Positions 28,416-59,819 of a stretch of 64,000 nt of DNA are shown in pieces. The notes beneath the pieces were generated by a model that saw only the letters and a list, made by a program, of their open reading frames with translations, was not told the DNA's origin and made no database searches. Made by a program: the position numbers and the translations under genes. This stretch comes from Globisporangium splendens (lineage: Eukaryota; Oomycota; Peronosporomycetes; Pythiales; Pythiaceae). How positions within the stretch are numbered: position 1 is the stretch's first letter; each line of letters opens with the position of its first letter. The stretch covers positions 20,797 through 84,796 of the forward strand of contig VFIW01000153.1 of assembly GCA_006386115.1 (NCBI GenBank), written 5' to 3'.

Positions 28416-29398
28416 CTATTGTGCTTCGACAAGAAAGCGAGCTACCGGTACGGCCTCAATCGGATACGCCTCTCGGCCATACTCCACAGGCATACGCACC
28501 GCTTCATCTACGATCATGTCGAAGTAACCTAAGAATCTCTCCGCATCGAAACCGCAGTCGGGATTGAACCCGTACACAGCGATTTTGATGAACGACGCGA
28601 CTTCTTTTGCGCGGGCTCCGCACTGGGCTTGACGAGAGAGGAGAACGTGTCTGTTAGTTCAAGCGTAGCATTTCACGTCACAAACCATGGTCATACCTGC
28701 TCTTGAAGCCAATCGTCCAGGTTGCGCTTGAGGTTGTCGCGGTGTGTGATGCCATTCGGGTAGTACTGCCAACTTCGGACAACGAAGCCTCCTTCTTTTT
28801 CCAGCTCTTTGATTGTAGGATTCACATGCTTGTCTCGCTGTCCCTCGATCATCTTGTACAGACGCGGCCATTCACTGCCGTAAATGCAGCGCTGCTTAGG
28901 ACACGCGGACACATCAAGCACAGCAATCCCCGGCTGGAATTTTCGCCCGCGTGGATTGACGATTGATTTGGGATGGCTGTGTGAGAGTGCATTGAAGAGC
29001 TGGGATGACTTGTCCACAGCGGCCGTGAGCGTGTTGTGTGTCCTGCGTGCATAGCTGTGCACTTGACGGAGCTCGTCTCTAATCTCTGTCAGTGTGGTCT
29101 CCATGCGGTCTCCGCGCGCATCAGCAGCACTGGCACGCTCTTCAGCAGCACTTGCACGCTCTTCAGCAGCACTGGCACGCACTTCAGCAGCACTTGCACG
29201 CTCTTCAGCAGTACTGGCACGCACTTCAGCAGCATCTGCATGTTGGCGTTCCTGCGCGAGGGCGTTCTCCGCGGTCTGTGCGCGCTGCTGCTCATGCTGG
29301 AGAGAGCGAAGTGCGGCTAAGAACACCTCACGACTACGAAGGTCCTCATTGTGAAGAATTTCGTGCTCCAGCGATCGAAGCGTGTCCACGGTGGCCAT
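28416..29398 (-). CDS. Coiled-coil DUF3627-like gene C, copy 1 (two exons)
   Basis: Exon 1 runs 29,398-28,697 (ATG at 29,398). The intron is 28,696-28,623 (74 bp, GTATGA…CCCAG). Exon 2 runs 28,622-28,416 (TAG). The product is about 302 residues. Residues ~1-150 form a coiled coil with a perfect heptad series (ASAAEER and ASAAEVR units). It then leads into a globular domain with IEGQRDKHVNPTIKELEK and YYPNGITHRDNLK. The G-Q and P-N-G-I positions match DUF3627, the domain following MSV199 in iridovirus and ascovirus proteins. Exon 2 encodes a hydrophobic/acidic tail (FDMIVDEAVRMPVE). Its function is unknown. Genes A and B share the plan. Confidence 0.7.
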
Positions 29399-29513
29399 GG
29401 CGTTCAAAATTCTGAATGGCGGTATTGTTTCTTGTGTTCAGTTTAGGGAACTCCTGGTTTGGTGTGTACCACACTACTATATTTGGTCTGCCTTCAAGTG
29501 ATGTGGTCCAGTT

Positions 29514-29620
29514 AGTGTAATAGGCTATACCTAACCATTACATGAAAGTGCGGCTGTGCCCTACTTTAGTGTTGACCACACCACCTTCAAATCGTACTTT
29601 GTGGACAAAGGCTGTGTCTT
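29514..29620 (+). repeat. Diverged LTR fragment
   Basis: TGTAATAGGCTATACCTAACCATTACATG matches the start of the chromovirus LTR (TGTAATGGGCTATACCTAGCC on its sense strand). Homology fades after about 100 bp. It lies at the upstream border of gene C copy 1. Confidence 0.6.
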
Positions 29621-30260
29621 AGAGAGAGAGAGAAGATAGAGAGAGAGAAGATAGAGAGAGAGAGAGTGAAGGTGATGATGATGAAAAAGAATCTATTGAA
29701 CTCAGAGTTTAAGATTTCCAGGGGAAGAGAATTGGGGGGTTCTCAGCTATCATATCCTGCCGTAACACAAGCATTCTCACACTTGCGTCCGGGTTTTTCG
29801 TAATTTTCTAGTTTTTCTGGCATTTGGAGTTTCTTCGTTTGCCATTTTGTAAATGGCTTTGTTCGTTGTTGTACGTTTTGGCTGTGCTTTGTCAGCCTCA
29901 CTTGCACTAGTGAACGTCGCGCTTCGATGCTTCGATCACGTCTAGAGTCACAGAGCCGGTAGGCTCTGTTACGGGGTCTTGTGCTGCTCGGTATGGTGGC
30001 CGCAGACAGCGGGGAGTCTTGTGCTGTTCGGTATGGTGGCCGCAGACAGCGGGTAATAGTGCGGCGTCCTGGTGGGCGTCGCAGTTGTGCTTCGTGGCGG
30101 ATTGACCGCGACATAGGGTCCGTAGTCGTGCTCATAGTGATCGTGCATTCCATTCCTCACCACCCCAGGGCCTCCAAGAAGGAGGGATTCTCTCCCTGGG
30201 ATGGTCCGGTCCAAACTGGACCGCTGAGGCTGGAACTGGACCGCTTGAGCTCTACTGGGA
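29621..30260 (-). repeat. LINE 3'-end fragment and tandem duplication
   Basis: AGAGAGAGAGAAG tracts followed by GAATCTATTGAACTCAGAGTTTAAG resemble the 3' end of L1-L4 and probably mark a related LINE tail. At 29,975-30,055 a block of about 40 bp (GGTATGGTGGCCGCAGACAGCGGG) is tandemly duplicated. No gene is recognised here. Confidence 0.45.
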
Positions 30261-30339
30261 AAAATGGAGAATGAGAGAGAGAGAAGGTAATTCTATTGAA
30301 CTTATGGTCTACATACAGTTTAAGAATTCCTGAGTCTCA

Positions 30340-31755
30340 TTAACACTGCTGACAGTGACGTGTTTCTAAGTTTTGACGGTGTGGCACCGATATCATTGTC
30401 GAGTAGAGCTGCGACTTGGGACAGAAGTACTTGATCATTTCCCGCGATTCGTCGGCGAGTATCTTCGCATTCTTGGAGTTCATTGCCATGTTGGCGAGAA
30501 GGTCGGCCATTTTGTTTTGTTCTCGTTTTGTGTGATTCCAGGAGGTCCACGCAAAGTTGGCGATGATTTGATTTACCCGAACTGCTAGTGGCTGCAACTT
30601 GGTCTGGCGTATTGAGGCGAACCCGTTCTGGGATGCGATAATCGTTTGGCTGTCTCCGAAGACTTCCAACTTGACTTCATAATGCTGTAGGTAGTGTGCA
30701 CTGTATGCCAGACCATCTTTCAGCGCGCTGTATTCGCACCAATTGTTCGTGACTTCTGGTCCCATGTACGCATAGCCGCATGCTTTGAGTTCCCATCGAT
30801 TGCTGCGTTCATTCAGGAAGATGAGTGCCCATCCGCTGCCTCCTGGACCTGGGTTGCCGCGTGCACCTCCATCGAAATACAAACGCGCCGTCGCCCATGC
30901 TTCCAGTTGGCGCGACAAGTCTTGTCTCTCCAGTACGCTGAGCAGTTGGCTCAGGCAAGTTGCATCGATCTTTTCTCCTTTGAGCGTTCTCATCCGATGA
31001 GCCACGGCCCGCACTTGCATCACACACGCTGTCCACACTCGCTGGGTACTTTCTTCGATAGTGAGTGTTGCCGTTCATGCACTATTTCCACTCTCGTTCT
31101 CCATAGCAAAACTGGGATGCTTGATGTGACGATAAACCAAAGTTTCTGTAGTGCTACAGAGTGTTCCGGAGTAATGAACCCGAAGTGCTTTTCCAATTCC
31201 CGGAGCAAAGATCGTTGACCTGGCGGGGCTGTGCGACTAGCAATATGAGGCAGGAAGAGGTTGAGTGCTTGCTCTGTCAATGTTCGACCCATCCATCGCC
31301 CGAGAAGGCCGTCCACGCGGCTTGTGCTCGCTTGCAACTCCAGATTATGTGTGAGATAGTTTCTTTTGTCTCCCCACATCCGGCATTGCTTGGGCACGCC
31401 GAAGACTCGATCCTTCCGGATGGAACAGGTTGAGCTGCATCGTAGAAATCCGGTATGTCGTCCACATCTGATACGGCGTAAGACATCCTCGTTGTTTCCA
31501 CAGATCTGCTGGTAGTCGATACTGCACATGGCTGTACCACTGGTCAGTTTTCGCGACTTCGTTGAGCTTGTCTATGAGTCCTCCGAGACCTTGATACAAC
31601 TTGCTGTGCAGCCTCCGTGTTCGTGCTCGGTCAATTGTCTTCTGGATGCTGTTTGGGGGAGTACGTTCGTGCACCAGCCACGGACAGTGAGTCGTGAGCG
31701 GGTGCGGTTTGAATGTCCACCCTACGGTCTTTATTTCTTCTTCGATCATTGCCAC
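30340..31755 (-). pseudogene. LINE L2 connector zinc knuckle and RNase H
   Basis: The connector zf-RVT motif (CPSNAGCGETKETISHI…C) and RNase H (FDGGARGNPG, WCEYSALKDG, FGDSQT, KMADLLANM) are split over three frames. An extra frame change near 30,430 changes the C-terminus relative to L3. Confidence 0.85.
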
Positions 31756-31788
31756 GTCTTGTTGACAGTAGCATCCCCGCCCAGTCGG

Positions 31789-34700
31789 TCACTGTCCAGA
31801 GAACTCCGTTTGCTTGCCGTTGCATCTGAATGTAGTCCGTGTGGCTCCCTCCGATACTGGCACCGCGATGATGGTTCCCATGCCATTGCTGATCCACTTG
31901 TACTCTCGTTTTGTGTGTTTCCTGCTCCACGGCTCCTGGTGACTGTTCAGCTGGTTGCCTGCATCGATTTCTATCTCCGGTGAGCATAGAATGATGCTGG
32001 TTACGAGTTTTCGCAAGGTGGTCATTCGTTTGAACGTGAGAGTCGCCGTCATGGTTGGTAGCCGCACGGAGAACACTCGCTCTTCCTCCCGTCTCACGTT
32101 GAAGCTGGCCAAATTGCATTCCTTCAGGAAAGGAACCGTTTTGACTGAATACTGCTCGCCTTGACTGTCGATTATCCAGGGGTTGTCGTTCCACTGAAAG
32201 GATGGCCAGAAGGCTCGAGTCTCTTCCGATAGTTGATGAATCGTCTGCTCAGGTTTTCTCCCAAAGTACACACCTACACGTCCGTCTGATCTCCACTCGA
32301 GGTCCAGGGTCGGTAGCAAGGATTCCATTTGCCGCTTCAGATCGTCTTTCCACGCGAGATTGCGTCCCTCTGCAGCCACCAGGTCTTCACCGAGATACTC
32401 CCACCCGAGTCTGTGGATATTGTTCGTCTGGTACAGCCTTGTCTGTGCGTTCTGGCTTCGCTCCTTGGGTGAAATCGCGCAGCACCCCCAGTTTTGACTT
32501 ATGTCCTGATGAACCTGTTCATGCCATGCTTCTGTGTACTTGTCTCGCGCTCGCTGTAGCCACCGAGTTGTCCGCCGCATCGCTTGTCGCTTTATTGCAA
32601 GAGGTATTGAATAGAGACCTATGCCTCCTTCCTTGACTGGCAAGTAGAGCAGGGAAGGACTCACCATGTGCCTCGTGCCGTCTGTGCCGAGTGTCGATTT
32701 CCACAAAAACTGCTTTTGTAGATTCACTAGCTGGTCCACGACCTTCGCTGGGGGCTTGATGTAGCTGACAGTGAACAGAATCGACGGCAGTAAGACCGAA
32801 TTCAGTATAAGCACTCTCCCCACCACACTGTTGGAGACTTTGGCTGCGATGATCAATCTGGTTCGGAGCTTTTGCAGGCGGTCCTCCCAATTAGCTTGTG
32901 TGATGTTCCCGGTACCTATTTGGATGCCAAGGTACCTCACCGTCTCTCCATGCTTCAGGACCGGAATGCCGCATCTTTGTTCCTGGACTACTGCTGTGTT
33001 GAGACAGATGTAGCTGCTTTTCGTTGGTTGCACGTGCAGACCTGATTGCTGGCCGAACTCGGACAGCAGCTGCATCAGTCGAGGCAGCTGTTTCCCTTGT
33101 TTCAAAAAGACGGCGGAGTCGTCGACGAAGGTCGAAATGAGATGGGGTTCTGCTCCGGATCTGGTCACGCGAATTCCTTCCAGATGGGGGTCTTGCTGAA
33201 CTGCTAGTGCGAGAATCTCCGCGGCAACGATAAACAGGAGAGGGGAGAGGGGGCAACCTTGACGAATTCCCGACTTGACCTCCCATTCTCTCGACACTTC
33301 ACCGTTCACCAGGTACTGCGCTGTAGTGTCCGAGTGCATTCGACGTACTAAATCCACAAATTGTCGCCCAAAACCGAACTTGCTCAGCACAAGGTACAGA
33401 AAGTCTCTGTCCAATGTGTCGTAAGCCTTCATGAAGTCAAGCATAACAATTCCCGGAGCGTCATCCAACCCTTCAGCACTGTTGTGGTACGCTTTGTCCA
33501 ACGCAGCTTGCATGATGAGGATTGCCTCTCGTACTTCTTTTTCAGTGATGGGTGCCATCAAGTCTTGGTTTTGCGCTTCCGTGACTTTTCGAGTTCCCGG
33601 AATGTACACCAGTGCATCAAATCGCTGTTCAGCCTTCTGCGGAGGGACCGCAGCATGGCTCTGGCCAGTGATTTGGTTCCATTCTGCCCCCATGATGTCC
33701 GCCAGACTCGCGTTTGGTGGGTGGTACCTTCCGGGAGTCGGTTCCAATCGCGAAATTGTTTGATCCCGCTGCCAGTTGGCGATCCTCCGAAAGAAGTGAC
33801 GAACATCCCCCTGCGTTGCTTGCATATACTTGCCGAATTTGAACTCTGCTGCCTCACTTACCGTGTTTGCTTGTTCTTCGATCAGCTGACGCCTTGTGCG
33901 GTTTGCCGGTCGGTGCTGCTGATCCTCCAATTTTTGCCGATATCTTCGTACTTGCCGCTTCTCTGTTCGACTTACTCTCAGTATTGCTTTGATGATACGC
34001 TGCTCCAGGTTGCTCCATACGATTGACCCTTCACTCTGCATCAGCTCCAGATCGTGAGCGATTGCCTTTTGCACCCCAGTCCGCACCAAGTCAGGACGCG
34101 AGGTTCGCATCGGGTACCTGTACTTGTTCACTCTCTTTGGTCTCTGCGGTTGACTCGTCCATTTCATATGCAGCACCACTGCTTGGTGATCCGAGTAGCG
34201 CTTGGGTAGCTCTATGGCCTCCCATTGCACGGCGCTTCCCAGATTCCCTGCTATATAGAATCGGTCGAGTCGACTGGCTGAGTTTTTTCTCCAGTATGTG
34301 AAATGCTCCGTCGGTTCCCTCTGCACTGGCCACTCCGGATCCTCCACTAGCTCCCGTGCGTCGTAAATGCTCCACTCCGTCACTAGTCGTCTCAGTTCTG
34401 CACTTTCGCACTGCACAGATAGCCGAACTCCTCTTTGGTACCGGTCCCGTTGCTTGTCGAGCACACAATTGAAGTCACCTCCGAGCACTGCTGCTGCATC
34501 TTGATGAGTCCCGAACTCCTCGTTTAGGCGTCGGAAGAAGTGTTCTCGCTCTGGTTTCTTGTTGGGTGCGTACACATTAATCCACACCACTCCCTTGGAC
34601 TTGATAGCGACTGTGCGATTCGTCCACTTGGATTCCTCGATCAGTTGTGTTTCGCTAATCGTCTTCGGATTTGTGAGTATTGCCACTCCGCCGGTCGCGT

Positions 34701-34905
34701 CAGGATGGATGGACCAAAAGGATGTTGATTCGTCCAGGTTTGCAACCCCCCATATTCGGTTCCAGTAATGTCGGAGTCTGCGTTCTTCTTTGGCTGTGGT
34801 GATCCTCGTCTCCTGTAAATAAATGATATCATACTTTTCTGCGGTTAGTGCCCCCTTGAGGTCCTCTAACCATTTTGTTCGTTCTTTCTTTTTGAATCCG
34901 CACAC
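31789..34905 (-). pseudogene. LINE L2 endonuclease-RT-thumb, single long frame
   Basis: One uninterrupted frame of 1,038 codons from the endonuclease (NVCGFKKK, ETRI, GGDFNCVLD, SDHQAV) to the connector. RT motifs A to C are present (FMKAYDTLDRDF, GIRQGCPLSPLL, FVDDSA). The ~110 residues holding the earlier RT motifs are missing, precisely as in L1. The frame is long because the deletion is in phase. Catalysis should nevertheless be lost. Confidence 0.88.
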
Positions 34906-35188
34906 GTTCTAAGTTAATACCTGTAGCGTGTTTGGACATGGTCTTTTTTCCTTTTTTTGGTTTTTGTAAAATGCATTCTTGAGGGCATGTAGCGCGGCGT
35001 ACATTTCTGTGCCTGGGCTACTGCCACCTTGGTTACCTGTTGGTGTTGCGCCTTTAGTACCTTGAAGGCTCGACCGAGTCCACTTCCATGGTGACTTGAG
35101 CCATGATCACCGAAAGAGCTAACCACTCGCTGAGCTCCTCTCCACTCTTGAAGGCTGCTTTGAGTTACAAATAAATAAATGCACATAC

Positions 35189-35758
35189 CGTGACACCAAG
35201 AGTCTCAACAAGACGTTGATTCGCTAAGCTCACGAAGTTGTTGCGCATATTGATGCCGTTCCCAACGAGCTTGAACGGCACCAATACTTCGTGATCAAGA
35301 GCTTGTGCAAGCCTGCGCTTCACATACGCTTGCTGTCCGGAAATGAATCGCAACTCGTATTTACCGCTCGACGGACCTTTCTCTCGAAGGAGGACAGCAA
35401 AACCATGATGCATCTTCGAGTTGATCGGGCGGGTCGCAATGCGCTCTTCAATCCTACCCAATATCGCGTGCGTTGTCTCGTGTGCTGTCAAGAGCGAATC
35501 GACTTTGCCATCAATGCCGTCGATGAGACGCATGCGTTCGCGATGGTGAGTTTGGATTAGAAGCGTGATGTGCTCATTCTTCGCGCGCAGTTGGTCTTGC
35601 GCAACGCGCAATTGGTCATCTTTTGCGCGTAGTTGGTCATCCTTCGTGCGCACCAATTGACTGATATGTTCATCCTTCACACGCAGTTGGTCTTGCGCAA
35701 CGCGCAATTGTTCACGGAGCAACGCGTTTTCGGCTTGGAGCACGTCGTCACTTGGCAT
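35189..35758 (-). pseudogene. Coiled-coil DUF3627-like gene A, copy 1, exon 1 only
   Basis: ATG at 35,758. The 190-codon exon is intact to the GTATGTG donor at 35,188. After 22 bp of intron the sequence turns into LINE L2, so exon 2 is missing. The N-terminus is a coiled coil made of short repeats (AQDQLRVKDEHISQL, AKDDQLR). The C-terminal domain has KYELRFISGQQAYVKRRL and KLVGNGINMRNNFVS, aligning with G-Q and N-G-I of genes B and C. Probably dead. Confidence 0.75.
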
Positions 35759-36547: not shown

Positions 36548-37539
36548 CTATATCTCTATGTCTGACTCTTCTTCGTCATCATCTCGGATCAGATCGACGA
36601 ACTCGTCATCGATTCTCTCTTCAAGTACGAGGCGAGACCAGTCGTTCGCAGCGAGGAGAGGTGAGAGCTCGTTGAACGCATGGATGGCTTCGTCGATGAA
36701 CCCGCGGAACTCGTCGTAGCTAATGTTTGTTCCCGGTCGCCATGTCCACCAGATTGCTGTGCAGTGGGGGCGCAGATCGCGGCTCTACGTCGTTTCTATA
36801 CCTTAGATTAATACCGCAACTGTAGCATACATCAAATAAAGCAAACACTTACCAGAGGACGATACTCGGGGTCCAGAGAGTCCTTGATGCGCTGATTTGT
36901 GTGTGTTTTTACGTACTGGCGCAAATCGATCCCGTTACCAGACTTGCAAAGGCGAAGCGGGTGCCCACCATCCAATATCAGCTCGGTGCGTTGCTCAACA
37001 CAGTATTGCTTCTGGCCCGACGTGCACCTGATGCTCTTGGACTGCTGTTCGCTGTCAAATTCTGCCAAGAGGTAGTAGTGCTCGAGAGGTCGGCTCGGCG
37101 CAGTCGTCCCTTTCTCTCTCTTTGCTACGCGCTGCAAATCGGTCAGTCGGTTACTGATCTGAGCGTTCGCGCCAAGCACACGGTCGATGCGTCCACAGAT
37201 GTCGCGCCGGTGCTCGCGATTGAGCTGTACGAGCGCATTGCGAAGCGATTCGTGGTGTGCGTCGTTGACGCGTGCGAGCTCTTCGCGGTGTGCGTCGTTG
37301 ACGCGTGCGAGCTCTTCGCGGTGCTCGCGATTGAGTCGAGCGAGCTCTTCGTGTGCGTCTTTGAGTTGTGCGAGCGCTTCGTGGTGTGCGTCGCTTAGGC
37401 GTGCGAGATCCGCCTCAAGGCGCGTGCGGGCTTCGCGCTCACGGTCGAGATCCGCCTCAAGGCGCGTCCGGAGGTCATGTTCGTGCTCGAGGTCGCGCAG
37501 GGCGTTGTCAAGTCGGTGCTGTAGGGCAACGAGCGCCAT
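36548..37539 (-). CDS. Coiled-coil DUF3627-like gene B, copy 1 (two exons)
   Basis: Exon 1 runs 37,539-36,853 (ATG at 37,539; 229 codons). The intron is 36,852-36,785 (68 bp, GTAAGTG…ACGTAG). Exon 2 runs 36,784-36,548 (78 codons and stop). The N-terminus is a long coiled coil built from 11-residue units (HREELARVNDA, HHEALAQLKDA). The C-terminal domain of exon 1 has IRCTSGQKQYCVEQ and CKSGNGIDLRQYVK, the G-Q/N-G-I signature shared with A and C. Exon 2 encodes WWTWRPGTNISYDEF, GFIDEAIHAF and a very acidic end. The splice phase is 0, as in gene C. This is the shortest of three copies. Function is unknown, with possible oligomerisation through the coil. Confidence 0.72.
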
Positions 37540-40689: not shown

Positions 40690-41880
40690 TTCTCCAACTG
40701 GACCACATCACTTGAAGGCAGACCAAATATAGTAGTGTGGTACACACCAAACCAGGAGTTTCCTAAACTAAACACAAGAAACAAAACCGCCATTCAGAAT
40801 TTTGAACGCCATGGCCACCGTGGACACGCTTCGATCGCTGGAGCACGAAATTCTTCACAATGAGGACCTTCGTAGTCGTGAGGTGTTCTTAGCCGCGCTT
40901 CGCTCTCTCCAGCATGAGCAGCAGCGCGCACAGACTGCGGAGAACGCCCTCGCGCAGGAACGCCAACGTGCCAGTGCTGCTGAAGAGCGTGCCAGTGCTG
41001 CTGATGCGCGCGGAGACCGCATGGAGACCACACTGACAGAGATTAGAGACGAGCTCCGTCAAGTGCACAGCTATGCACGCAGGACACACAACACGCTCAC
41101 GGCCGCTGTGGACAAGTCATCCCAGCTCTTCAATGCACTCTCACACAGCCATCCCAAATCAATCGTCAATCCACGCGAGCAAAAACTCCAGCCAGGGATT
41201 GCAGTGCTTGATGTGTCCGCGTGTCCTAAGCAGCGCCGCATTTACGGCAGTGAAAGACCACGTCTGTACAAGATGATCGAGGGACAGCGAGACAAGCATG
41301 TGAATCCTACAATCAAAGAGCTGGAAAAAGAAGGAGGCTTCGTTGTCCGAAGTTGGCAGTACTACCCGAATGGCATCACACACCGCGACAACCTCAAGCG
41401 CAACCTGGACGATTGGCTTCAAGAGCAGGTATGACCATGGTTTATGACGTGAAATACTACGCTTGAACTAACAGACACGTTCTCCTCTCTCGTCAAGCCC
41501 AGTGCGGAGCCCGCGCAAAAGAAGTCGCGTCGTTCATCAAAATCGCTGTGTACGGGTTCAATCCCGACTGCGGTTTCGATGCGGAGAGATTCTTAGGTTA
41601 CTTCGACATGATCGTAGATGAAGCGGTGCGTATGCCTGTGGAGTATGGCCGAGAGGCGTATCCGATTGAGGCCGTACCGGTAGCTCGCTTTCTTGTCGAA
41701 GCACAATAGTAGAGGTATCGTTACTCTTTGGTCCTGATACCAAGTCCATGAGTACACCCGTCGGTCCGCGCGCGATCTTGATACCAAGTATATGAGTATA
41801 CCCGTTGGTCGCTCTTGCAATCTTTATCTGACCAACAACTCCCCAAATCCAGAATACAATCAGAAACGAGAAAGTACTAG
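40690..41880 (+). repeat. Gene C duplication, right copy (loop of P1)
   Basis: Inverted counterpart of 28,241-29,515. It fills most of the loop of palindrome P1. Only one copy exists in the loop, so it is not part of the arms. Confidence 0.85.
40811..41709 (+). CDS. Coiled-coil DUF3627-like gene C, copy 2 (two exons)
   Basis: Exon 1 runs 40,811-41,428, the intron 41,429-41,502 (74 bp) and exon 2 41,503-41,709. The product is about 274 residues, 28 fewer than copy 1. The difference is exactly four heptads of the ASAAEER series. The rest is nearly identical (NPREQKLQ against NPRGRKFQ, RPRLYK against WPRLYK). Frame, splice sites and stop are intact, so it may be expressed. Its upstream 110 bp is also conserved with copy 1 and may hold the promoter. 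Confidence 0.72.
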
Positions 41881-45148: not shown

Positions 45149-46239
45149 ATGGCGCTCGTTGCCCTACAGCACCGACTTGACAACGCCCTGCGCGACCTCG
45201 AGCACGAACATGACCTCCGGACGCGCCTTGAGGCGGATCTCGACCGTGAGCGCGAAGCCCGCACGCGCCTTGAGGCGGATCTCGCACGCCTAAGCGACGC
45301 ACACCACGAAGCGCTCGCACAACTCAAAGACGCACACGAAGAGCTCGCTCGACTCAATCGCGAGCACCGCGAAGAGCTCGCACGCCTAAGCGACGCACAC
45401 CACGAAGCGCTCGCACAACTCAAAGACGCACACGAAGAGCTCGCTCGACTCAATCGCGAGCACCGCGAAGAGCTCGCACGCGTCAACGACGCACACCACG
45501 AATCGCTTCGCACGCGTCAACGACGCACACCACGAATCGCTCGTCGCAATGCGCTCGTACAGCTCAATCGCGAGCACCGGCGCGACATCTGTGGACGCAT
45601 CGACCGTGTGCTTGGCGCGAACGCTCAGATCAGTAACCGACTGACCGATTTGCAGCGCGTAGCAAAGAGAGAGAAAGGGACGACTGCGCCGAGCCGACCT
45701 CTCGAGCACTACTACCTCTTGACAGAATTTGACAGCGAACAGCAGTCCAAGAGCATCAGGTGCACGTCGGGCCAGAAGCAATACTGTGTTGAGCAACGCA
45801 CCGAGCTGATATTGGATGGTGGGCACCCGCTTCGCCTTTGCAAGTCTGGTAACGGGATCGATTTGCGCCAGTACGTAAAAACACACACAAATCAGCGCAT
45901 CAAGGACTCTCTGGACCCCGAGTATCGTCCTCTGGTAAGTGTTTGCTTTATTTGATGTATGCTACAGTTGCGGTATTAATCTAAGGTATAGAAACGACGT
46001 AGAGCCGCGATCTGCGCCCCCACTGCACAGCAATCTGGTGGACATGGCGACCGGGAACAAACATTAGCTACGACGAGTTCCGCGGGTTCATCGACGAAGC
46101 CATCCATGCGTTCAACGAGCTCTCACCTCTCCTCGCTGCGAACGACTGGTCTCGCCTCGTACTTGAAGAGAGAATCGATGACGAGTTCGTCGATCTGATC
46201 CGAGACGATGACGAAGAAGAGTCAGACATAGAGATATAG
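45149..46239 (+). CDS. Coiled-coil DUF3627-like gene B, copy 2 (two exons)
   Basis: Exon 1 runs 45,149-45,934 (262 codons), the intron 45,935-46,002 (68 bp) and exon 2 46,003-46,239. The product is about 340 residues, 33 longer than copy 1. The extra length is 11-residue coil units plus a ~36-bp block (about 45,508-45,543). In that block a repeat unit is read in a different frame (TRQRRTPRIARR), giving a basic patch before the normal frame resumes. The C-terminal domain and exon 2 are unchanged. Splice sites are intact. Confidence 0.7.
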
Positions 46240-47039: not shown

Positions 47040-47773
47040 ATGCCAAGTGACGACGTGCTCCAAGCCGAAAACGCGTTGCTCCGTGAACAATTGCGCGTTG
47101 CGCAAGACCAACTGCGTGTGAAGGATGAACATATCAGTCAATTGGTGCGCACGAAGGATGACCAACTACGCGCAAAAGATGACCAATTGCGCGTTGCGCA
47201 AGACCAACTGCGCGCGAAGAATGAGCACATCACGCTTCTAATCCAAACTCACCATCGCGAACGCATGCGTCTCATCGACGGCATTGATGGCAAAGTCGAT
47301 TCGCTCTTGACAGCACACGAGACAACGCACGCGATATTGGGTAGGATTGAAGAGCGCATTGCGACCCGCCCGATCAACTCGAAGATGCATCATGGTTTTG
47401 CTGTCCTCCTTCGAGAGAAAGGTCCGTCGAGCGGTAAATACGAGTTGCGATTCATTTCCGGACAGCAAGCGTATGTGAAGCGCAGGCTTGCACAAGCTCT
47501 TGATCACGAAGTATTGGTGCCGTTCAAGCTCGTTGGGAACGGCATCAATATGCGCAACAACTTCGTGAGCTTAGCGAATCAACGTCTTGTTGAGACTCTT
47601 GGTGTCACGGTATGTGCATTTATTTATTTGTTATGTTTTACGTTGTCTAATACGTCTTTTTGCTGCCAGGATAGGAAGCGGAAGCGAGCGATATTTTCTT
47701 CCGATGCTGTCGTTCACAGTGGGTTGACTATGAGCAAGACTTCCCGCCTGAAACAATTAAAGATAGTATAGGC
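47040..47773 (+). pseudogene. Coiled-coil DUF3627-like gene A, copy 2, cut by LINE L3
   Basis: Exon 1 runs 47,040-47,609 and is the same as copy 1. The intron is 65 bp if it ends at the TAG of 47,672-47,674, or 60 bp if it ends at CAG (47,669). The longer choice puts exon 2 in a frame (GFYSQWVDYEQDF-like: R.QWVDYEQDFPPETIKD) that continues after the insertion in copy 3. The shorter choice stops at 47,771. Exon 2 is interrupted after …GATAGTATAGGC at 47,773 by LINE L3. The 3' remainder is not found behind L3, so this copy has lost its end. Confidence 0.7.
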
Positions 47774-47866
47774 ATCGTGTGGAGCAACCTGGAGCAGCGT
47801 ATCATCAAAGCAATACTGAGAGTAAGTTGAGCAGAGAAGCGGCAAGTACGAAGATATCGGCAAAAG

Positions 47867-49963: not shown

Positions 49964-51822
49964 TCGACAGTCAAGGCGAGCAGTATACAGTCAAAACGGT
50001 TCCTTTCCTGAAGGAATGCAATTTGGCCAGCTTCAACGTGAGACGGGAAGAAGAGCGAGTGTTCTCCGTGCGGATACCAACCATGACGGCGACTCTCACG
50101 TTCAAACGAATGACCACCTTGCGAAAACTTGTAACCAGCATCATTCTATGCTCACCGGAGATAGAAATCGATGCAGGCAACCAGTTGAACAGTCACCAGG
50201 AGCCGTGGAGCAGGAAACACACAAAACGAGAGTACAAGTGGATCAGCAATGGCATGGGAACCATCATCGCGGTGCCAGTATCGGAGGGGAGCCACACGGA
50301 CTACATTCAGATGCAACGGCAAGCAGACGGAGTTCTCTGGACAGTGACCGACTGGGCTGGGGGTGCTATCTGTCAACAAGACGTGGCAATGATCGAAGAA
50401 GAAATAAAGACTACAGGGTGGAGATTCAAACCGCACCCGCTCACGACTCACTGTCCGTGGCTGGTGCACGAACGCACTCCCCCAAATAGTATCCAGAAGA
50501 CAATTGACCGAGCACGAACACGGAGGTTGCACAGCAAGTTGTATCAAGGTCTCGGAGGACTCATAGACAAGCTCAACGAAGTCGCGAAAACTGACCAGTG
50601 GTACAGCCATGTGCAGTATCGACTACCAGCAGATCTATGGGAACAACGAGGATGCCTTACGCCGTATCAGATGTGGACGACATACCGGATCTCTACGATG
50701 CAGCTCAACCTATTCCATCCGGGAAGGATCGAGTCTTCGGCGTGCCCAAGCAATGCCGGATGTGGGGAGACAAAAGAAACTATCTCGCACATAGTGTGGA
50801 ATTGCAAGCGAGCGCAAGCCGTGTGGACCGCCTTCCTCGGGCGATGGACGGGTCGAACATTGACGGAGCAAGCACTCAATCTCTTCCTACCTCATATTGC
50901 TAGTCGCACAGTCCCGCCAGGTCAACGATCTTTGCTCCGGGAATTGGAAAAGCACTTCGGGTTCATTACTCCGGAACACTCTGTAGCACTACAGAAACTT
51001 TGGTTTATCGTCACATCAAGCATCCCAGTTTTGCTGTGGAGAACGAGAGTGGAAATAGTGCATGAACGACAACATCTCACTATTGAAGAAAGTACCCAGC
51101 GAGTGTGGACAGCGTGTGTGATGCAAGTGCGGGCCGTGGCTCATCGGATGAGAACGCTCAAAGGAGAAAAGATCAATGCTATCTGCCCGAGCCAACTGCT
51201 CAGCGTACTGGAGAGACAAGACTTGTCGCGCCAACTGGAAGAATGGGCGACGGCGCGTCTGTATTTCGATGGAGGTGCACGCGGCAACCCAGGTCCAGGA
51301 GGCAGCGGATGGGCACTCATCTTCCTGAATGAACGCACCAATCAGTGGGAACTCAAAGCATGCGGCTATGCGTACATGGGACCAGAAGTCACGAACAATT
51401 GGTGCGAATACAGCGCGCTGAAAGATGGTCTGACATACAGTGCACACTACCTACAGCATTATGAAGTCAAGTTGGAAGTCTTCGGAGACAGCCAAACGAT
51501 TATCGCATCCCAGAACGGGTTCTCCTCAATACGCCAGACCAAGTTGCAGCCTCTAGCAGCTCGGGTAAATCAAATCATCGCCAACTTTGCGTGGACCTCC
51601 TGGAATCACACAAGACGAGAACAAAACAAGATGGCCGATCTTCTCGCCAATATGGCAATGAACTCCAAGAGTGCGAAGATACTCACCGACGAATCGCGGG
51701 GAAATGATCAAGTTGTTATGTCCCAAGTCGCAGCTCTACTCGACAATGACATCGGTGCCACACCGTCAAGACTTAGAAACACCTCACTGCCAGCAGTGTT
51801 AATGAGACTCAGGAATTCTTAA
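49880..51822 (+). pseudogene. LINE L3 connector and RNase H
   Basis: Open frame after the one-base deletion: PEQTIHQLSEETRAFWPSF, the connector zinc knuckle (CPSNAGCGETKETISHI), then RNase H with all four acids (FDGGARGNPG, WCEYSALKDG, FGDSQT, KMADLLAN). It ends at 51,822, followed by about 45 bp and the TC tail. Confidence 0.87.
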
Positions 51823-51869
51823 ACTGTGTGTAGATCATAAGTTAAATAGAATCACCTTCTCTCTCTCTC

Positions 51870-52147
51870 ATATGAATGCATTATTTGGGATTTTCACAAT
51901 CAAATCATTGAAGCCATCAAGCGACGCAGACCAGCGCTTCCGACAACGCGCTCGAAACGAAAGAAGCAATATTGAAAGCAGCGATTGAGCGTGAAAGCTT
52001 TGCCTCGCCATCTCCATTTCATGAAGTAAGATTAACTAGCCGCGATCGTTCTCTGCTAATGAGATCTTTCAGCTTTGCGTGCATAGGGTGATATGTATCG
52101 TCTATCTCTCTATCGTAAGTCTCTATTGATTCGCCTATACTATCTTT
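51870..52147. other. Spacer of palindrome P2 with two gene tails
   Basis: The minus strand from 52,147 to a TGA at 52,019-52,021 continues exon 2 of gene A in frame (DTYHPMHAKLKDLISRE), the part beyond LINE L4. The plus strand 51,871-51,975 is open (FHNQIIEAIKRRRPAL) and ends in TGA. It resembles the exon-2 tails of B (EFRGFIDEAI) and may be the end of another family member. Unique sequence lies between them. Confidence 0.55.
52133..52147. repeat. Target-site duplication of LINE L4, 3' side
   Basis: GCCTATACTATCTTT (15 bp), identical to 56,245-56,259 at the 5' side of L4. It proves insertion of L4 into gene A exon 2. Confidence 0.88.
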
Positions 52148-52198
52148 TTTTTAGAGAGAGAGAAGGTAATTCTATTTAACTTATGATCTACACACAGT

Positions 52199-53410
52199 TT
52201 AAGAATTCCTGAGTCTCATTAACACTGCTGGCAGTGAGGTGTTTCTAAGTCTTGACGGTGTGGCACCGATGTCATTGTCGAGTAGAGCTGCGACTTGGGA
52301 CATAACAACTTGATCATTTCCCCGCGATTCGTCGGTGAGTATCTTCGCACTCTTGGAGCTCATTGCCATATTGGCGAGAAGATCGGCCATCTTGTTTTGT
52401 TCTCGTCTTGTGTGATTCCAGGAGGTCCACGCAAAGTTGGCGATGATTTGATTTACCCGAGCTGCTAGAGGCTGCAACTTGGTCTGGCGTATTGAGGAGA
52501 ACCCGTTCTGGGATGCGATAATCGTTTGGCTGTCTCCGAAGACTTCCAACTTGACTTCATAATGCTGTAGGTAGTGTGCACTGTATGTCAGGCCATCTTT
52601 CAGCGCGCTGTATTCGCACCAATTGTTCGTGACTTCTGGTCCCATGTACGCATAGCCGCATGCTTTGAGTTCCCACTGATTGCTGCGTTCATTCAGGAAG
52701 ATGAGTGCCCATCCGCTGCCTCCTGGACCTGGGTTGCCGCGTGCACCTCCATCGAAATACAAACGCGCCGTCGCCCATGCTTCCAGTTGGCGCGACAAGT
52801 CTTGTCTCTCCAGTACGCTGAGCAGTTGGCTCAGGCAAGTTGCATTGATCTTTTCTCCTTTGAGCGTTCTCATCCGATGAGCCACGGCCCGCACTTGCAT
52901 CACACACGCTGTCCACACTCGCTGGGTACTTTCTTCGATAGTGACGTGTTGCCGTTCATGCACTATTTCCACTCTCGTTCTCCACAGCAATACTGGGATG
53001 CTTGATGTGACGATAAACCAAAGTTTCTGTAGTGCTGTCGAGTGTTCCGGAGTAATGAACCCGAAGTGCTTTTCCAATTCCCGGAGCAAAGATCGTTGAC
53101 CTGGCGGGGCTGTGCGGCTAGCAATATGAGGCAGGAAGAGGTTGAGTGCTTGCTCCGTCAATGTTCGACCCATCCATCGCCCGAGAATGGCCGTCCACGC
53201 GGCTTGTGCTCGCTTGCAACTCCAGACTATGTGTGAGATAGTTTCTTTTGTCTCCCCACATCCGGCATTGCTTGGACATGCAAAGACTCGATCCTTCCCG
53301 GATGGACAGGTTGAGCTGCATCGTAGAAATCCGGTATGTCGTCCACATCTGATACGGCGTAAGACATCCTCGTTGTTTCCATAGATCTGCTGGTAGTCGA
53401 TACTGCACAT
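52199..53410 (-). pseudogene. LINE L4 connector zinc knuckle and RNase H
   Basis: Open frame with ACPSNAGCGETKETISHIVW and RNase H motifs FDGGARGNPG, WCEYSALKDG, FGDSQT and KMADLLAN. It overlaps the preceding frame by nearly 300 bp after a frameshift in the BamHI-like GGATCC..-poor stretch near 53,290. Confidence 0.82.
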
Positions 53411-56151
53411 GGCTGTACCACTGGTCAGTTTTCGCGACTTCGTTTAGCTTGTCTATGAGTCCTCCGAGACCTTGATACAACTTGCTGTGCAGCCTCCGCA
53501 TTCGTGCTCGGTCAATTGTCTTCTGGATACTATTTGGGGGAGTGCGTTCGTGCACCAGCCACGGACAGTGAGTCGTGAGCGGGTGCGGTTTGAATCTCCA
53601 CCCTGTAGTCTTTATTTCTTCTTCGATCGTTGCAACGTCTTGTTGACAGATAGCACCCCCAGCCCAGTCGGTCACTGTCCAGAGAACTCCGTCTGCTTTC
53701 CGTTGCATTTGGATGTAGTCCGTGTGGCTCCCCTCCGATACTGGCACCGCGATGATGGTTCCCATGCCATTGCTGATCCACTTGTACTCTCGTTTTGTGT
53801 GTTTCCTGCTCCACGGCTCCTGGTGACTGTTCAACTGGTTGCCTGCATCGATTTCTATCTCCGGTGAGCATAGAATGATGCTGGTTACGAGTTTTCGCAA
53901 GGTGGTCATTCGTTTGAACGTGAGAGTCGCCGTCATGGTTGGTAGCCGCACGGAGAACACTCGCTCTTCCTCCCGTCTCACGTTGAAGCTGGCCAAATTG
54001 CATTCCTTCAGGAAAGGAACCGTTTTGACTGTATACTTCTCGCCTTGACTGTCGATTATCCAGGGGTTGTCGTTCCACTGAAAGGATGGCCAGAAGGCTC
54101 GAGTCTCTTCCGATAGTTGATGAATCGTCTGCTCAGGTTTTCTCCCAAAGTACACACCTACACGTCCGTCTGATCTCCACTCGAGGTCCAGGGTCGGTAG
54201 CAAGGATTCCATTTGCCGCTTCGGATCGTCTTTCCACGCGGGATCGCGTCTCTCTGCCGCCACCAAGTCTTCACAGAGATACTCCCACCCGAGTCTGTGG
54301 ATATTGCTCGTCTGGTACAGCCTTGTCTGTGCGTTCTGGCTTCGCTCCTTTGGTGAAATCGCGCAACATCCCCGGTTTTGACTTTTGTCCCGATGAACCT
54401 GTTCATGCCAAGCCTCTGTATACTTGTCTCGCGCTCGCTGTAGCCACCGAGTTGTCCGCCGCATCGCTTGTCGCTTTACTGCAAGACGTATTGAACAGAG
54501 ACCTATGCCTCCTTCCTTGACTGGCAGGTAGAGCAGGGGAGGACTCACCTTGTGCCTCGTGCCGTCTGTGCCAAGTGTCGATTTCCACAAAAACTGCTTT
54601 TGTAGATTCACTAGCTGATCCACGACCTTCGCTGGGGGCTTGATGTAGCCGACAGTGAACAGAATCGACGGCAGTAAGACCGAATTCAGTATAAGCACTC
54701 TCCCCACCACACTGTTGGAGACTTTGTCCGCGATGATCAATCTGGTTCGGAGCTTTTGCAGGCGGTCCTCCCAATTAGCTTGTGTGATGTTCCCGGTTCC
54801 TATTTGGATGCCAAGGTACCTCACCGTCTCTCCATGCTTCAGAATTGGAATGCCGCATCTTTGTTCCTGGACTACTGCTGTGTTGAGACAGATGTAGCTG
54901 CTTTTCGTTCGTTGCACGTGCAGACCTGATTGCTGGCCGAACTCGGACAACAGCTGCATCAGCCGAGGCAGCTGTTTCCCTTGTTTCAAAAAGACGGCGG
55001 AGTCATCGACGAATGTCGAAATAAGATGGGGTTCTGCTCCGGATCTGGTCACGCGAATTCCTTCCAGATGGGGGTCTTGCTGAACTGCCAGTGCGAGAAT
55101 CTCCGCGGCAACGATAAACAGAAGTGGGGCCAAAGGGCAACCTTGACGAATTCCCAACTTGACCTCCCATTCTCTCGACACTTCATCGTTCACCAGGTAC
55201 TGCGCTGTAGTGTCCGAGTGCATTCGATGTACTAAATCCACAAATTGTCGCCCAAAACCGAACTTTCTCAGCACAAGATACAGAAAATCTCTGTCCAATG
55301 TGTCGTAAGCCTTCATGGAGTCAAACATCGCAATTCCCGGAGCGTCGTCCAACCCTTCAGCACTGTTGTGGTACGCTTTGTCCAACGCAGCTTGCATGAT
55401 GAGGATCGCGTTCTCCATCAGTCGGTCGCGTACGAAGCCTTGTTGTGCTTCCCCGATGATCCACAGAAGGATGTCTTGCAGCCTTGTTGTCAAGACTTTT
55501 GCAAACAACTTGTAGGTGGTCGTAAGCAGAGTGATTGGTCTGTAGTCGAGGGGTTTGGCGAATCTCCTTTCTTGCGCAACGGTATCACGATTCCTTGACC
55601 AAATGATCGTGGCATGGATGCCCCGCGTTGGATGTTGTTGAATTCCTGCACCAAACGCCGACCATCACGTCCTCACAATCCTTGTAGAAGCCATTGTTCA
55701 GACTGTCCACGCCACCTGCCTTATGCCGATGTAAAGCCGCGATTGCCTCTTGTACTTCCTTTTCAGCGATGGGTGCCATCAAGTCTTGGTTTTGCTCTTC
55801 CGTGACTTTTCGAGTTTCCGGAATGTACACCAGTGCATCAAATCGCTGTTCAGCCTTCTGCGGAGGGACCGCAGCATGGCTCTGGCCGGTGATTTGGTGC
55901 CATTCTTCCCCCATGATGTCCGCTAGACTCGCGTTTGGTGAGTGGTACCTTCCGGGGGTCGGTTCCAATCGCGAAATTGTTTGATCCCGCTGCCAGTTGG
56001 CGATCCTCCGAAAGAAGTGACGAACATCCCCCTGCGTTGCTTGCATATACTTACCGAATTTGAACTCTGCTGCCTCCCTTGCCGCGTTTGCTTGTTCTTC
56101 GATCAGCTGACGCCTTGTGCGGTTTGCCGGCCGGTGCTGCTGATCCTCCAA
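53118..56151 (-). pseudogene. LINE L4 reverse transcriptase
   Basis: The first segment (56,151-55,585) holds the region before motif 1 and APIAEKEVQEAIAALHRHKAGGVDSLN. Frameshifts follow near 55,590 and 55,510. The long segment from 55,508 holds FVRDRLMENAIL, motif A (with Ser in place of Phe), motif B, FVDDSA and the thumb. Dead copy. Confidence 0.83.
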
Positions 56152-56244
56152 CTTTTGCCGATATCTTCGTACTTGCCGCTTCTCTGCTCAACTTACTCTC
56201 AGTATTGCTTTGATGATACGCTGCTCCAGGTTGCTCCACACGAT

Positions 56245-56259
56245 GCCTATACTATCTTT
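56245..56259. repeat. Target-site duplication of LINE L4, 5' side
   Basis: GCCTATACTATCTTT, the partner of 52,133-52,147. Confidence 0.88.
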
Positions 56260-56978
56260 AATTGTTTCAGGTGGGAAGTCTTGCTCATAGTCAACCCACT
56301 GTGAACGACAGCATCGGAAGAAAATATCGCTCGCTTCCGCTTCCTATCCTGGCAGCAAAAAGACGTATTAGACAACGTAAAACATAACAAATAAATAAAT
56401 GCACATACCGTGACACCAAGAGTCTCAACAAGACGTTGATTCGCTAAGCTCACGAAGTTGTTGCGCATATTGATGCCGTTCCCAACGAGCTTGAACGGCA
56501 CCAATACTTCGTGATCAAGAGCTTGTGCAAGCCTGCGCTTCACATACGCTTGCTGTCCGGAAATGAATCGCAACTCGTATTTACCGCTCGACGGACCTTT
56601 CTCTCGAAGGAGGACAGCAAAACCATGATGCATCTTCGAGTTGATCGGGCGGGTCGCAATGCGCTCTTCAATCCTACCCAATATCGCGTGCGTTGTCTCG
56701 TGTGCTGTCAAGAGCGAATCGACTTTGCCATCAATGCCGTCGATGAGACGCATGCGTTCGCGATGGTGAGTTTGGATTAGAAGCGTGATGTGCTCATTCT
56801 TCGCGCGCAGTTGGTCTTGCGCAACGCGCAATTGGTCATCTTTTGCGCGTAGTTGGTCATCCTTCGTGCGCACCAATTGACTGATATGTTCATCCTTCAC
56901 ACGCAGTTGGTCTTGCGCAACGCGCAATTGTTCACGGAGCAACGCGTTTTCGGCTTGGAGCACGTCGTCACTTGGCAT
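56245..56978 (-). pseudogene. Coiled-coil DUF3627-like gene A, copy 3, cut by LINE L4
   Basis: ATG at 56,978. Exon 1 runs 56,978-56,409, the intron 56,408-56,344 (65 bp) and the first part of exon 2 56,343-56,245. LINE L4 then intervenes. The rest of exon 2 is found beyond it at 52,132-52,019, in the same frame. This is the only copy in which the whole gene can be traced. Exon 1 is identical in protein sequence to copies 1 and 2 and contains GQQAYV and GNGINMRNN. Confidence 0.75.
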
Positions 56979-57778
56979 TTTTGCTTTGTTTCTTCTTGTT
57001 GAATGAAGGAAGTCGATGTGAAGGAAAACAGAATGAATGTCAATTTGAAAATTTGTATTGGGTGTGGCAAGTATTTAAAACACTTCATCAGAGTCAGAAT
57101 CAGAATCAGCATTACCGTCAACATTCGGTATTATCGTAAAAACACTGTACTACTGCCATCACACGGTACAATCATCACGACACAGTTCAACATTTCCAAA
57201 ATTAACTGATAGTTATTTTGAGTTGTATTTATTATTTGAATATAATATACAAAGTGAATCGAACTTGAACGACATCTTTGCCCGGAGATACCTTCTCCGA
57301 GATTGTCAGGCGGTCTAAGTTCACTCAGAGTATCGGCCCGAATCAAAAAACAGAAGGCCATCTCTGAGTTGTTTGGTGCTATGGTATCTCATGGCAACTT
57401 GTAAGATCATTTGAGATGAGGTGAGGTGAGGGATCAACCAGCACCGAAGCATCAAGAAACACAAAACAAACAGAAAAAAAAGACTGACCAGCACATATTT
57501 GCCTTCTCGAGGCTGCGGACCTGAGGGTATCTCGCGCCGAGCAATGAGAGTCCTCAGTAGTTTTTCAGCCTGGTCCGAGTATTGCGTAGTTTATGAGATC
57601 CGTTGTTAGCAGAGTTTTTTCTCGCGCTTTTCTCGCGCTAACATCACTCAAAATGAATTCATTCGACCGAATCTCCCAACGACAAGCAACCATCCGATCT
57701 TTGTAGCGAGAATGCAGTAGGCAAGGAGTTGAGCATCTGTGCATTTTTCACTTACCAAAATAATATATGTGTTTGCAT
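56979..57778. other. Intergenic between genes A and B (unit 3)
   Basis: Equivalent of 35,759-36,547, with the Fanzor remnant at 57,297-57,405. It agrees with unit 2 in the small indel near 57,585, unlike unit 1. Confidence 0.5.
57297..57405 (+). repeat. Fanzor right-end remnant, unit 3
   Basis: Same sequence as in units 1 and 2. Confidence 0.75.
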
Positions 57779-58932
57779 CTATATCTCTATGTCTGACTCT
57801 TCTTCGTCATCGTCTCGGATCAGATCGACGAACTCGTCATCGATTCTCTCTTCAAGTACGAGGCGAGACCAGTCGTTCGCAGCGAGGAGAGGTGAGAGCT
57901 CGTTGAACGCATGGATGGCTTCGTCGATGAACCCGCGGAACTCGTCGTAGCTAATGTTTGTTCCCGGTCGCCATGTCCACCAGATTGCTGTGCAGTGGGG
58001 GCGCAGATCGCGGCTCTACGTCGTTTCTATACCTTAGATTAATACCGCAACTGTAGCATACATCAAATAAAGCAAACACTTACCAGAGGACGATACTCGG
58101 GGTCCAGAGAGTCCTTGATGCGCTGATTTGTGTGTGTTTTTACGTACTGGCGCAAATCGATCCCGTTACCAGACTTGCAAAGGCGAAGCGGGTGCCCACC
58201 ATCCAATATCAGCTCGGTGCGTTGCTCAACACAGTATTGCTTCTGGCCCGACGTGCACCTGATGCTCTTGGACTGCTGTTCGCTGTCAAATTCTGTCAAG
58301 AGGTAGTAGTGCTCGAGAGGTCGGCTCGGCGCAGTCGTCCCTTTCTCTCTCTTTGCTACGCGCTGCAAATCGGTCAGTCGGTTACTGATCTGAGCGTTCG
58401 CGCCAAGCACACGGTCGATGCGTCCACAGACGTCACGCCGGTGCTCGCGATTGAGCTGTACGAGCGCATTGCGGAGCGATTCGTGGTGTGCGTCGTTGAC
58501 GCGTGCGAGCTCTTCGTGGTGTGCGTCGTTGACGCGTGCGAGCTCTTCGTGGTGTGCGTCGTTGACGCGTGCGAGCGCTTCGTGGTGTGCGTCGTTGACG
58601 CGTGCGAGCTCTTCGCGGTGCTCGCGATTGAGTCGAGCGAGCTCTTCGTGTGCGTCTTTGAGTTGTGCGAGCGCTTTGTGGTGTGCGTCGTTGACGAGTG
58701 CGAGCTCTTCGCGGTGCTCGCGATTGAGTCGAGCGAGCTCTTCGTGTGCGTCTTTGAGTTGTGCGAGCGCTTCGTGGTGTGCGTCGCTTAGGCGTGCGAG
58801 ATCCGCCTCAAGGCGCGTGCGGGCTTCGCGCTCACGGTCGAGATCCGCCTCAAGGCGCGTCCGGAGGTCATGTTCGTGCTCGAGGTCGCGCAGGGCGTTG
58901 TCAAGTCGGTGCTGTAGGGCAACGAGCGCCAT
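57779..58932 (-). CDS. Coiled-coil DUF3627-like gene B, copy 3 (two exons)
   Basis: Exon 1 runs 58,932-58,084 (283 codons), the intron 58,083-58,016 (68 bp) and exon 2 58,015-57,779. The product is about 361 residues, the longest of the three. The additional coil consists of more 11-residue units (VNDAHHEELAR three times over). The C-terminal domain and exon 2 are as in copies 1 and 2. Ordered change in unit number with an otherwise constant sequence suggests slippage or unequal exchange in the repeat. Confidence 0.72.
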
Positions 58933-59819
58933 GATGGTCTCTTCACTTTCAAAATTGCAAACTGTGTGTGCAGAGAGACTCAGGCACCAGTACAAAATGC
59001 ATTGGCTGAATGCATCTGAGTCTGAGGAAACACAGTTTAAAACACTTGCAGTTGCCAAACTCAAACCAAACGATTCTTTGCGCGCGCATTCATCAACTTC
59101 ATCAACTTCATCCACAAGTAGGCAAGCAACATGCAGAGCAGCAGCGAAGCGAGTGAGAACGAGTTCCTGAAGAAGCACATCACTGAACTAGAAGCACAGG
59201 TCTCGAGACTGACTCTCAGACACACTACTCCGAGCGCATGCAGCTTCATGACGAACGCGGGAGACTGATTCAGGTGCACCACGCTGAACGCGCCGCTATG
59301 AGAACAACTTCCCAATTGAAGCGCTCAAGACATGTTTAATGAGTTGTTTATTAGTTTGATAGCGTGTTTTCGTTCAGGTCTCCACCACAATTCAAAGTTG
59401 GGTGACGCCGCCAACGAATCCGAAAATGACATGAGGTCAGTTGCCATTTATCAACCCCCCCCTATTGCTTTTTCGACACCCCACAGGGTCAAAACAGGAC
59501 ATATGCACTGTGTTATGGAAATTCCTCTCTGCCTTATCTGCCAAAAAGATCCATCTCTTCTTGGCTGTTCGCATTCGATAGAATGAGTATGTTGCTGTCC
59601 TTCTCTCTGAAAGTGAATAGAGTGAGAGGTCGAATGCGGCAGCGTCCTTTCTCTTGCTACTGTGATGGATTTAGGCCAATAGAAACGCTGGGATTCATCA
59701 CAGATGAACTTGCACCCAATCAGTGCACCGCACATTGTCAAGTTTCGTCTCACCCAAACATTTGACGACTGAATGCTGTCGTCTTTCGTCTCACTCAGGA
59801 AGTTGACAACTGGAAGAGA
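58933..59819. other. Divergent region between gene B copy 3 and SET copy 3
   Basis: Same as 37,540-38,426, including the frameshifted small coiled-coil ORF on the plus strand (about 59,131-59,330). No other gene. Confidence 0.4.

Follow-up and report, generated by a model that had tools for sequence, protein, structure and literature searches.

The 64,000-nucleotide window analysed here, from the oomycete Globisporangium splendens (contig VFIW01000153.1, positions 20,797 to 84,796, forward strand), carries repeated copies of three spliced genes, A, B and C, which would form one coiled-coil family with a C-terminal domain of the DUF3627 type known from large DNA viruses. Our preferred reading, which we hold with moderate confidence, is that this family is derived from a virus and that its last intron offers two acceptors, one giving a basic tail directed to the nucleus and the other a long, mostly acidic tail. 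Support at the level of sequence extends to the domain, the position of the intron, both acceptors, both open frames and the coding of the long tail.

The window lies on contig C63, within a genome that we searched over 53.3 Mb in 195 contigs. Sites with the G-Q and N-G-I motifs mark three copies of gene A, three of gene B and two of gene C, and exon and intron coordinates were rebuilt for all eight, both exons being present in seven. The common plan put forward by the sequence-only reading was recovered with every motif in its place: a coiled-coil exon 1 ending in the G-Q/N-G-I domain, followed by a phase-0 GT..AG intron and a short exon 2. The coiled coil varies in length among copies by whole repeat units (229, 262 and 283 amino acids in B, 206 and 234 in C). 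The intron measures 60 or 65 nucleotides in A, 57 or 68 in B and 69 or 74 in C; the 65-74 base pairs given previously hold for the second acceptors (65, 68 and 74 nucleotides), the first acceptors of the pairs, here AG1, having been overlooked. The copies are as follows.

Gene A, third copy, exon 1: 56409..56978 (-), coiled coil and DUF3627-like domain, 190 amino acids (DUF3627 E 3.1e-4, 21.2 bits)
Gene A, third copy, intron, phase 0: 56344..56408 (-), 60 nucleotides to AG1, 65 to AG2
Gene A, third copy, exon 2 from AG1: 56247..56348 (-), predicted basic (KRKR) tail, 33 amino acids
Gene A, third copy, exon 2 from AG2: 56188..56343 (-), predicted long acidic/hydrophobic tail, 51 amino acids; homologous tail within Phytophthora nicotianae protein P0003
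Gene A, second copy, exon 1: 47040..47609 (+), from the motif search and rebuilt gene model
Gene A, second copy, exon 2: 47670..47830 (+), basic tail 47670-47771, long tail 47675-47830
Gene A, first copy, exon 1: 35189..35758 (-), exon 2 lost at a retrotransposon junction, 35167
Gene B, third copy, exon 1: 58084..58932 (-), 283 amino acids, 11-residue coiled-coil repeats
Gene B, third copy, exon 2: 57779..58026 (-), basic tail 57820-58026 (68 amino acids), long tail 57779-58015 (78 amino acids)
Gene B, second copy: exon 1 45149..45934, exon 2 45992-46239 (+), rebuilt gene model
Gene B, first copy: exon 1 36853..37539, exon 2 36548-36795 (-), rebuilt gene model
Gene C, first copy, exon 1: 28697..29398 (-), 234 amino acids
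Gene C, first copy, exon 2: 28416..28627 (-), basic tail 28529-28627 (32 amino acids), long tail 28416-28622 (68 amino acids)
Gene C, second copy: exon 1 40811..41428, exon 2 41498-41709 (+), rebuilt gene model

Elsewhere in the genome, gene A has paralogues on several contigs: A2 on C135 and C186 (56-58% identical over the match), A3 on C175 (34%), A4 on C130 and C135 (43%), and a weak member, L014, on C41 (28%). A stop codon lies upstream of the domain in both copies of A2, and only the part after it was used in comparisons. The C41 member does not enter any of the counts for exon 2 because its exon 2, read by eye, gave no in-phase acceptor pair. In the public gene model for A4 (P0002, C130), exon 1 is followed by a stretch that lies past the two tails given here, and exon 2 may therefore have been annotated wrongly. 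There is also a degenerate copy of B on C162, which was compared and not counted among the genes; in exon 2 it is open in both frames, and the 13 differences counted where the sequences overlap do not favour one frame over the other. Two off-target alignment rows, C58a for C and B130 for B, were ignored.

Paired acceptor AGs close the intron in six of the seven distinct members (A, A2, A3, A4, B and C, the order followed for all sixfold values below), the C41 member being without a clear pair. AG1 and AG2 are separated by 5 nucleotides in five members and by 11 in B, a spacing that shifts the frame, so that two readings of the entire terminal exon could be possible. From AG1 the tail would have 33, 33, 33, 47, 68 and 32 residues, the frame stopping after 33 codons in A, A2 and A3 (TAG, TAG and TGA); from AG2 it would have 51, 63, 72, 78, 78 and 68, and the third frame closes after 18, 10, 18, 8, 24 and 40 codons. 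The AG1 tails are uniformly basic (net charge +6, +6, +7, +7, +7 and +5), and the AG2 tails carry -3, -4, -3, +4, -14 and -4. K[KR]x[KR], the pattern of the classical nuclear-localisation motif, is present in all six basic tails and in none of the long ones; exon 1 of the five genes examined holds it a single time, in B. Tandem 3' splice sites of the NAGNAG type likewise place acceptors a few nucleotides apart and yield two isoforms, as we predict from sequence for these introns; what differs is that the spacing of 5 or 11 nucleotides changes the frame of a terminal exon, and does so across divergent paralogues. It is this candidate two-frame terminal exon behind paired acceptors that we regard as the new point.

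A protein search with a profile of four paralogues returned three proteins: that of G. splendens itself, F442_20490 of P. nicotianae (235 residues, E 1.5e-29) and a fragment from another assembly (E 2.3e-18). In the P. nicotianae protein the domain continues directly into a tail, residues 169-220 of which, compared separately, match exon 2 as read in the long frame of A3 (E 9e-4) and, in part, of A2 (E 0.033); a chance resemblance among these sequences is thus unlikely. As this protein joins the domain to the long tail in the way predicted, it offers what we consider the best evidence here, at the level of sequence, that exon 2 and the intron are real.

How far does constraint extend to each frame? 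Simulations in which a single frame was constrained were run for A, A2 and A3 (six directed pairs, 300 runs each). When only the basic frame was constrained, the observed similarity in the long frame was reached in 0 of 300 runs for every pair; when only the long frame was constrained, the observed similarity in the basic frame had P values of 0.043, 0.003, 0.017, 0.000, 0.007 and 0.007. In a second test the long tail was synonymously recoded with the codon use of the family, and the motif together with an open frame then arose with P values of 0.045, 0.030, 0.044, 0.015, 0.155 and 0.094, whose product of about 1e-8 is overstated because the paralogues share ancestry. Synonymous differences in exon 1 are near saturation (proportion of synonymous differences 0.70-0.84), and against this background the third positions of the long frame in exon 2 are suppressed between A and A3 (11 of 32 versus 77 of 112, p 0.0008). 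By these comparisons the long tail is coding, and the basic tail is probably also under selection, most clearly for its motif; A2 may be relaxed, given the stop upstream of its domain.

The connection of the domain to DUF3627 (Pfam PF12299) comes first from exon 1 of gene A, which at 21.2 bits (E 3.1e-4) passes the gathering cut-off of 20.9; read as an unspliced frame, A scores 20.2 bits, just under it. When the family domains were scanned alone, three of seven matched DUF3627 (best E 0.0032), and no other family was matched by more than one member. The P. nicotianae homologue reached 14.2 bits, below the cut-off, and P0002 (A4) and P0004 gave no DUF3627 row in the Pfam scan. Gene B aligns with the A-group profile at a probability of 94% (score 49 versus at most 20.6 in 60 shuffles), in an alignment that runs into the tail, and by this measure it is a profile-level homologue of A; C joins the family marginally. 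Structural comparison used AlphaFold models built from 4 and 6 sequences, with low confidence in the domain. In Foldseek searches of viral models, the top match of 337 for A was a DUF3627 protein from Heterosigma akashiwo virus 01 (E 0.086, a low-confidence model). Of the 546 matches to the P. nicotianae protein, the three best were nameless, the first named rows were Bro-N and N1R/p28, and the named rows were mostly Bro-N, N1R/p28, BRO, T5orf172 and DUF3627, at E 0.019 and above and again from a low-confidence model. The idea that DUF3627 is a degenerate GIY-YIG/T5orf172 fold was dropped; T5orf172 proteins are among these rows, but with weak scores.

In a survey of nucleocytoplasmic large DNA viruses (NCLDV), a domain named NCVOG1424, which we take as probably the same as DUF3627, lies downstream of KilA, BRO and MSV199 domains (PMC3493329). 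The domain of our family shares this C-terminal position with NCVOG1424, as described there. The difference lies in front of it, where A, B and C have a coiled coil, as well as in the intron and two-frame tail and in the fact that B and C are linked to DUF3627 only via A. Pfam scans of exon 1 of A, B and C found no MSV199, Bro-N or KilA-N domain, the N-termini matching only unrelated, mostly coiled-coil families with weak scores, and a genome search with PF10553 gave no match, the control genomes being equally silent. The DNA-binding N-terminus of the viral proteins would thus be absent from the family, and the earlier designation of these genes as MSV199-type has to be given up, given that none of the three domains was found there.

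The proposed link to viral DNA gains from the surroundings of A2. About 0.6 kb away and head to head with it on C135 is a fragment of RPB1 comprising its C-terminal half (L052:2781-4709, 643 residues), with a second copy on C186. Its best matches in the PDB are 8q3b and its kin (E 1.8e-77), the best cellular RNA polymerase II standing at 1.8e-49, and 8Q3B is named in the paper on the RNA polymerase of African swine fever virus (PMC10881513). Asfarvirus-like insertions have been described amongst transposable elements in Globisporangium species and in P. parasitica, there called a synonym of P. nicotianae; most are silent, the exception being an RNA polymerase fragment together with its neighbours (Hannat et al. 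2021, PMC8204020). The likeness to our case lies in the oomycete host and in the asfarvirus-like RNA polymerase fragments amid transposable elements (PMC8204020). The genes named in the accessible text of that study are RNA polymerases, capsid, helicase, one T5orf172 protein and hypothetical proteins, with neither a DUF3627 coiled-coil family nor a dual-frame exon among them (PMC8204020). Since A2 adjoins an RPB1 fragment that best matches African swine fever virus, the source of the family was probably an asfarvirus-like endogenous element of the kind already known in oomycetes. A viral origin is likely on the strength of these neighbours and of the domain's kin, rather than of a tree; that a virus took the family from such nuclear genes, the opposite course raised in the sequence-only reading, found no support here.

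A number of results weigh against the reading we prefer, some of them concerning the tails and others the domain and its origin. Those on the tails bear on a simpler explanation, less probable in our view and nonetheless a serious possibility, in which only the long tail is real: AG2 works, and AG1 and the basic frame arise incidentally from the codons for E-A-x-A-S with which the long tail starts. This would suit the conservation of the long frame as far as Phytophthora. It would also suit the general lack of suppression at third positions, as the extra constraint expected from a second frame is seen in only one of six pairs, the other five giving p 0.23-1.0. The openness of the basic frame is likely by chance: under recoding it stayed open to full length with P values of 0.77, 0.59, 0.68, 0.20, 0.32 and 0.67 (product 0.013, overstated for the same reason of shared ancestry), and at 0.20-0.77 per gene openness alone is weak evidence; in C, moreover, the third frame is longer than the basic one (40 versus 32 codons). 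Further AGs are found in three of the six introns, 6 and 24 nucleotides before AG1 in B, 23 in C and 22 in A3, as well as in the first bases of B and A3, so that the pair was partly chosen by eye. In addition, the simulation for A-A2 fell short of the observed long-frame identity (21.8 and 22.9 versus 25, at the edge of the grid), and the long tail of A4 is basic (+4). On the other hand, an AG 5 nucleotides upstream of AG2 (11 in B) has been kept in six of seven members even though exon 1 is near saturation at its synonymous sites, recoding yields the combination of basic motif and open frame less often, and A-A3 shows strong suppression at the third positions of the long frame.

As for the domain and its origin, exon 1 of B and of C gave no DUF3627 match of their own in the Pfam scan (among the best 25 of 27 rows for B and 13 of 13 for C), C aligned with the A-group profile at a probability of only 31% (score 28 versus at most 20.8 in shuffles), and B and C showed no match to each other (0.4%); the earlier comparison with DUF3627 therefore stands for A, extends through A to B and is marginal for C. 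The domain models have block-mean predicted local distance difference test scores mostly of 50-70, the Foldseek searches of viral models contained no match reaching E 0.001, and comparison with PDB structures brought no gain for the domain. Nor did a genome search for the NCLDV capsid find a match, its control being silent as well, or a scan of viral contigs with the A domain, the sole such scan made with this family, find a relative. Could this then be a host family, native to oomycetes, that a giant virus also carries? We think this unlikely. In its favour, the copies are spliced, multiplied and set amid retrotransposons in the window, where no NCLDV core gene was seen among 20 frames scanned with Pfam. 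Against it, the kin of the domain named in our searches are viral, A2 adjoins the RPB1 fragment closest to African swine fever virus, and our searches named no relatives beyond G. splendens itself and P. nicotianae, another oomycete with asfarvirus-like insertions (PMC8204020).

If the family is indeed virus-derived with two tails, a course of events can be proposed in which we infer viral descent, oligomerisation, the use of both acceptors in RNA and nuclear import. An asfarvirus-like endogenous element probably brought the family into oomycetes, where it would then have multiplied amid retrotransposons. Its coiled coils probably form homo- or hetero-oligomers that present the DUF3627-type domain. 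Choice of AG1 would add the short basic tail with its predicted nuclear-localisation motif and give a nuclear form, whilst choice of AG2 would extend the domain by the longer, mostly acidic tail and give a non-nuclear one; the same exon DNA would thereby be read in two frames, with the splice site setting entry into the nucleus. The domain may gain a strand from the long tail, as residues 175-179 of the P. nicotianae protein are modelled, with low confidence, as a short strand. As the family proteins are without a DNA-binding head, their likeliest role would be that of partner or competitor of full-length proteins with a DUF3627-type domain.

Perhaps the host has gone further and kept the family, shorn of its DNA-binding head but still with coiled coil and DUF3627 domain, as a splice-switched regulator, the basic-tail isoform entering the nucleus and hetero-oligomerising with the full-length BRO/MSV199-type proteins of incoming giant viruses to block them, with the long-tail isoform cytoplasmic or inactive, and with repeated duplication and in-frame change of the coiled-coil repeats as signs of an arms race; we consider this quite improbable. 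Least probable of all is use of the basic tail alone with the long frame as the remnant of an older, unspliced viral reading frame, since, even though AG1 is the first of its pair, the upstream acceptor of a pair is normally preferred in splicing and the 60-nucleotide intron of A keeps the frame even when retained, constraint on the basic frame never reproduced the long-frame similarity and the match between P. nicotianae and A3 covers 52 residues, past the basic stop at 33 codons.

The accessible parts of the published literature on DUF3627 and MSV199, on the G. splendens genome, on asfarvirus-like and other giant-virus insertions in oomycetes and on tandem acceptors did not mention this family. 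Many protists are known to carry endogenous DNA of giant viruses. Here there is a defined, multiplied family with a domain of viral regulatory type in oomycetes that attack crops (Globisporangium and Phytophthora), and with it a candidate switch, a single terminal exon open in two frames whose tails have opposite charge in five of six genes. Should both acceptors prove to be in use, this would be a dual-coding exon conserved across several paralogues and a handle on how oomycetes use the genes of giant viruses.

The multiplication of the copies noted in the sequence-only reading is borne out, but in the window they are mainly inverted duplications accompanied by retrotransposons, not a simple tandem array. 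Modules made up of A, B and a zinc-finger/SET gene alternate in orientation, and non-LTR (non-long-terminal-repeat) retrotransposons lie beside A. In the first A copy the intron is cut at 35167 by such an element, whose sequence next to the cut shares 98.9% identity with the copy at 24979-25445. The same module is collinear on contig C130 at a near-constant offset of about 275.3-275.4 kb, and because of this shared gene order C130 is probably the other haplotype of the region. The companions of the family in the module are as follows.

C2H2 zinc finger and SET-domain gene, divergent neighbour of B: 59820..60491 (+), 38427-39098 (+), 43589-44260 (-); PF00856 on the 38427-39098 copy, zinc-finger matches in the PDB
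Non-LTR retrotransposon, four copies (endonuclease, reverse transcriptase, RNase H): 20542-25445, 30340-35166, 47867-51822, 52199-55508

The three window copies of the zinc-finger/SET gene have identical translations; genome-wide there are eight close copies, one of which, on C71, is 91% identical and lies on a contig without a match to B. Pfam was run on the first two retrotransposon copies, the other two being assigned by DNA similarity; three of the four adjoin gene A, one of them severing its exon 2. On C175, a cysteine-rich frame (L054:2092-4047) that looks RING-like by eye and contains a Hint (intein-type) domain stands head to head with A3, and beyond this frame are a DUF7587 frame and a DUF5763-like frame (below the cut-off); look-alikes of the latter two, judged by eye, stand alongside the weak member on C41.

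Elsewhere in the window, an 832-residue open frame at 25333-27831 (-) had no Pfam match at E 0.01, and a Ty3-type retrotransposon at 11090-16932 (-) encodes gag, protease, reverse transcriptase, integrase core and chromodomain. A gene for a TnpB/Fanzor-like RNA-guided nuclease at 19158-20459 (-) scores above the NCBIfam guided_TnpB cut-off, its top match in the PDB being the TnpB-like protein L79 (E 6.8e-20).

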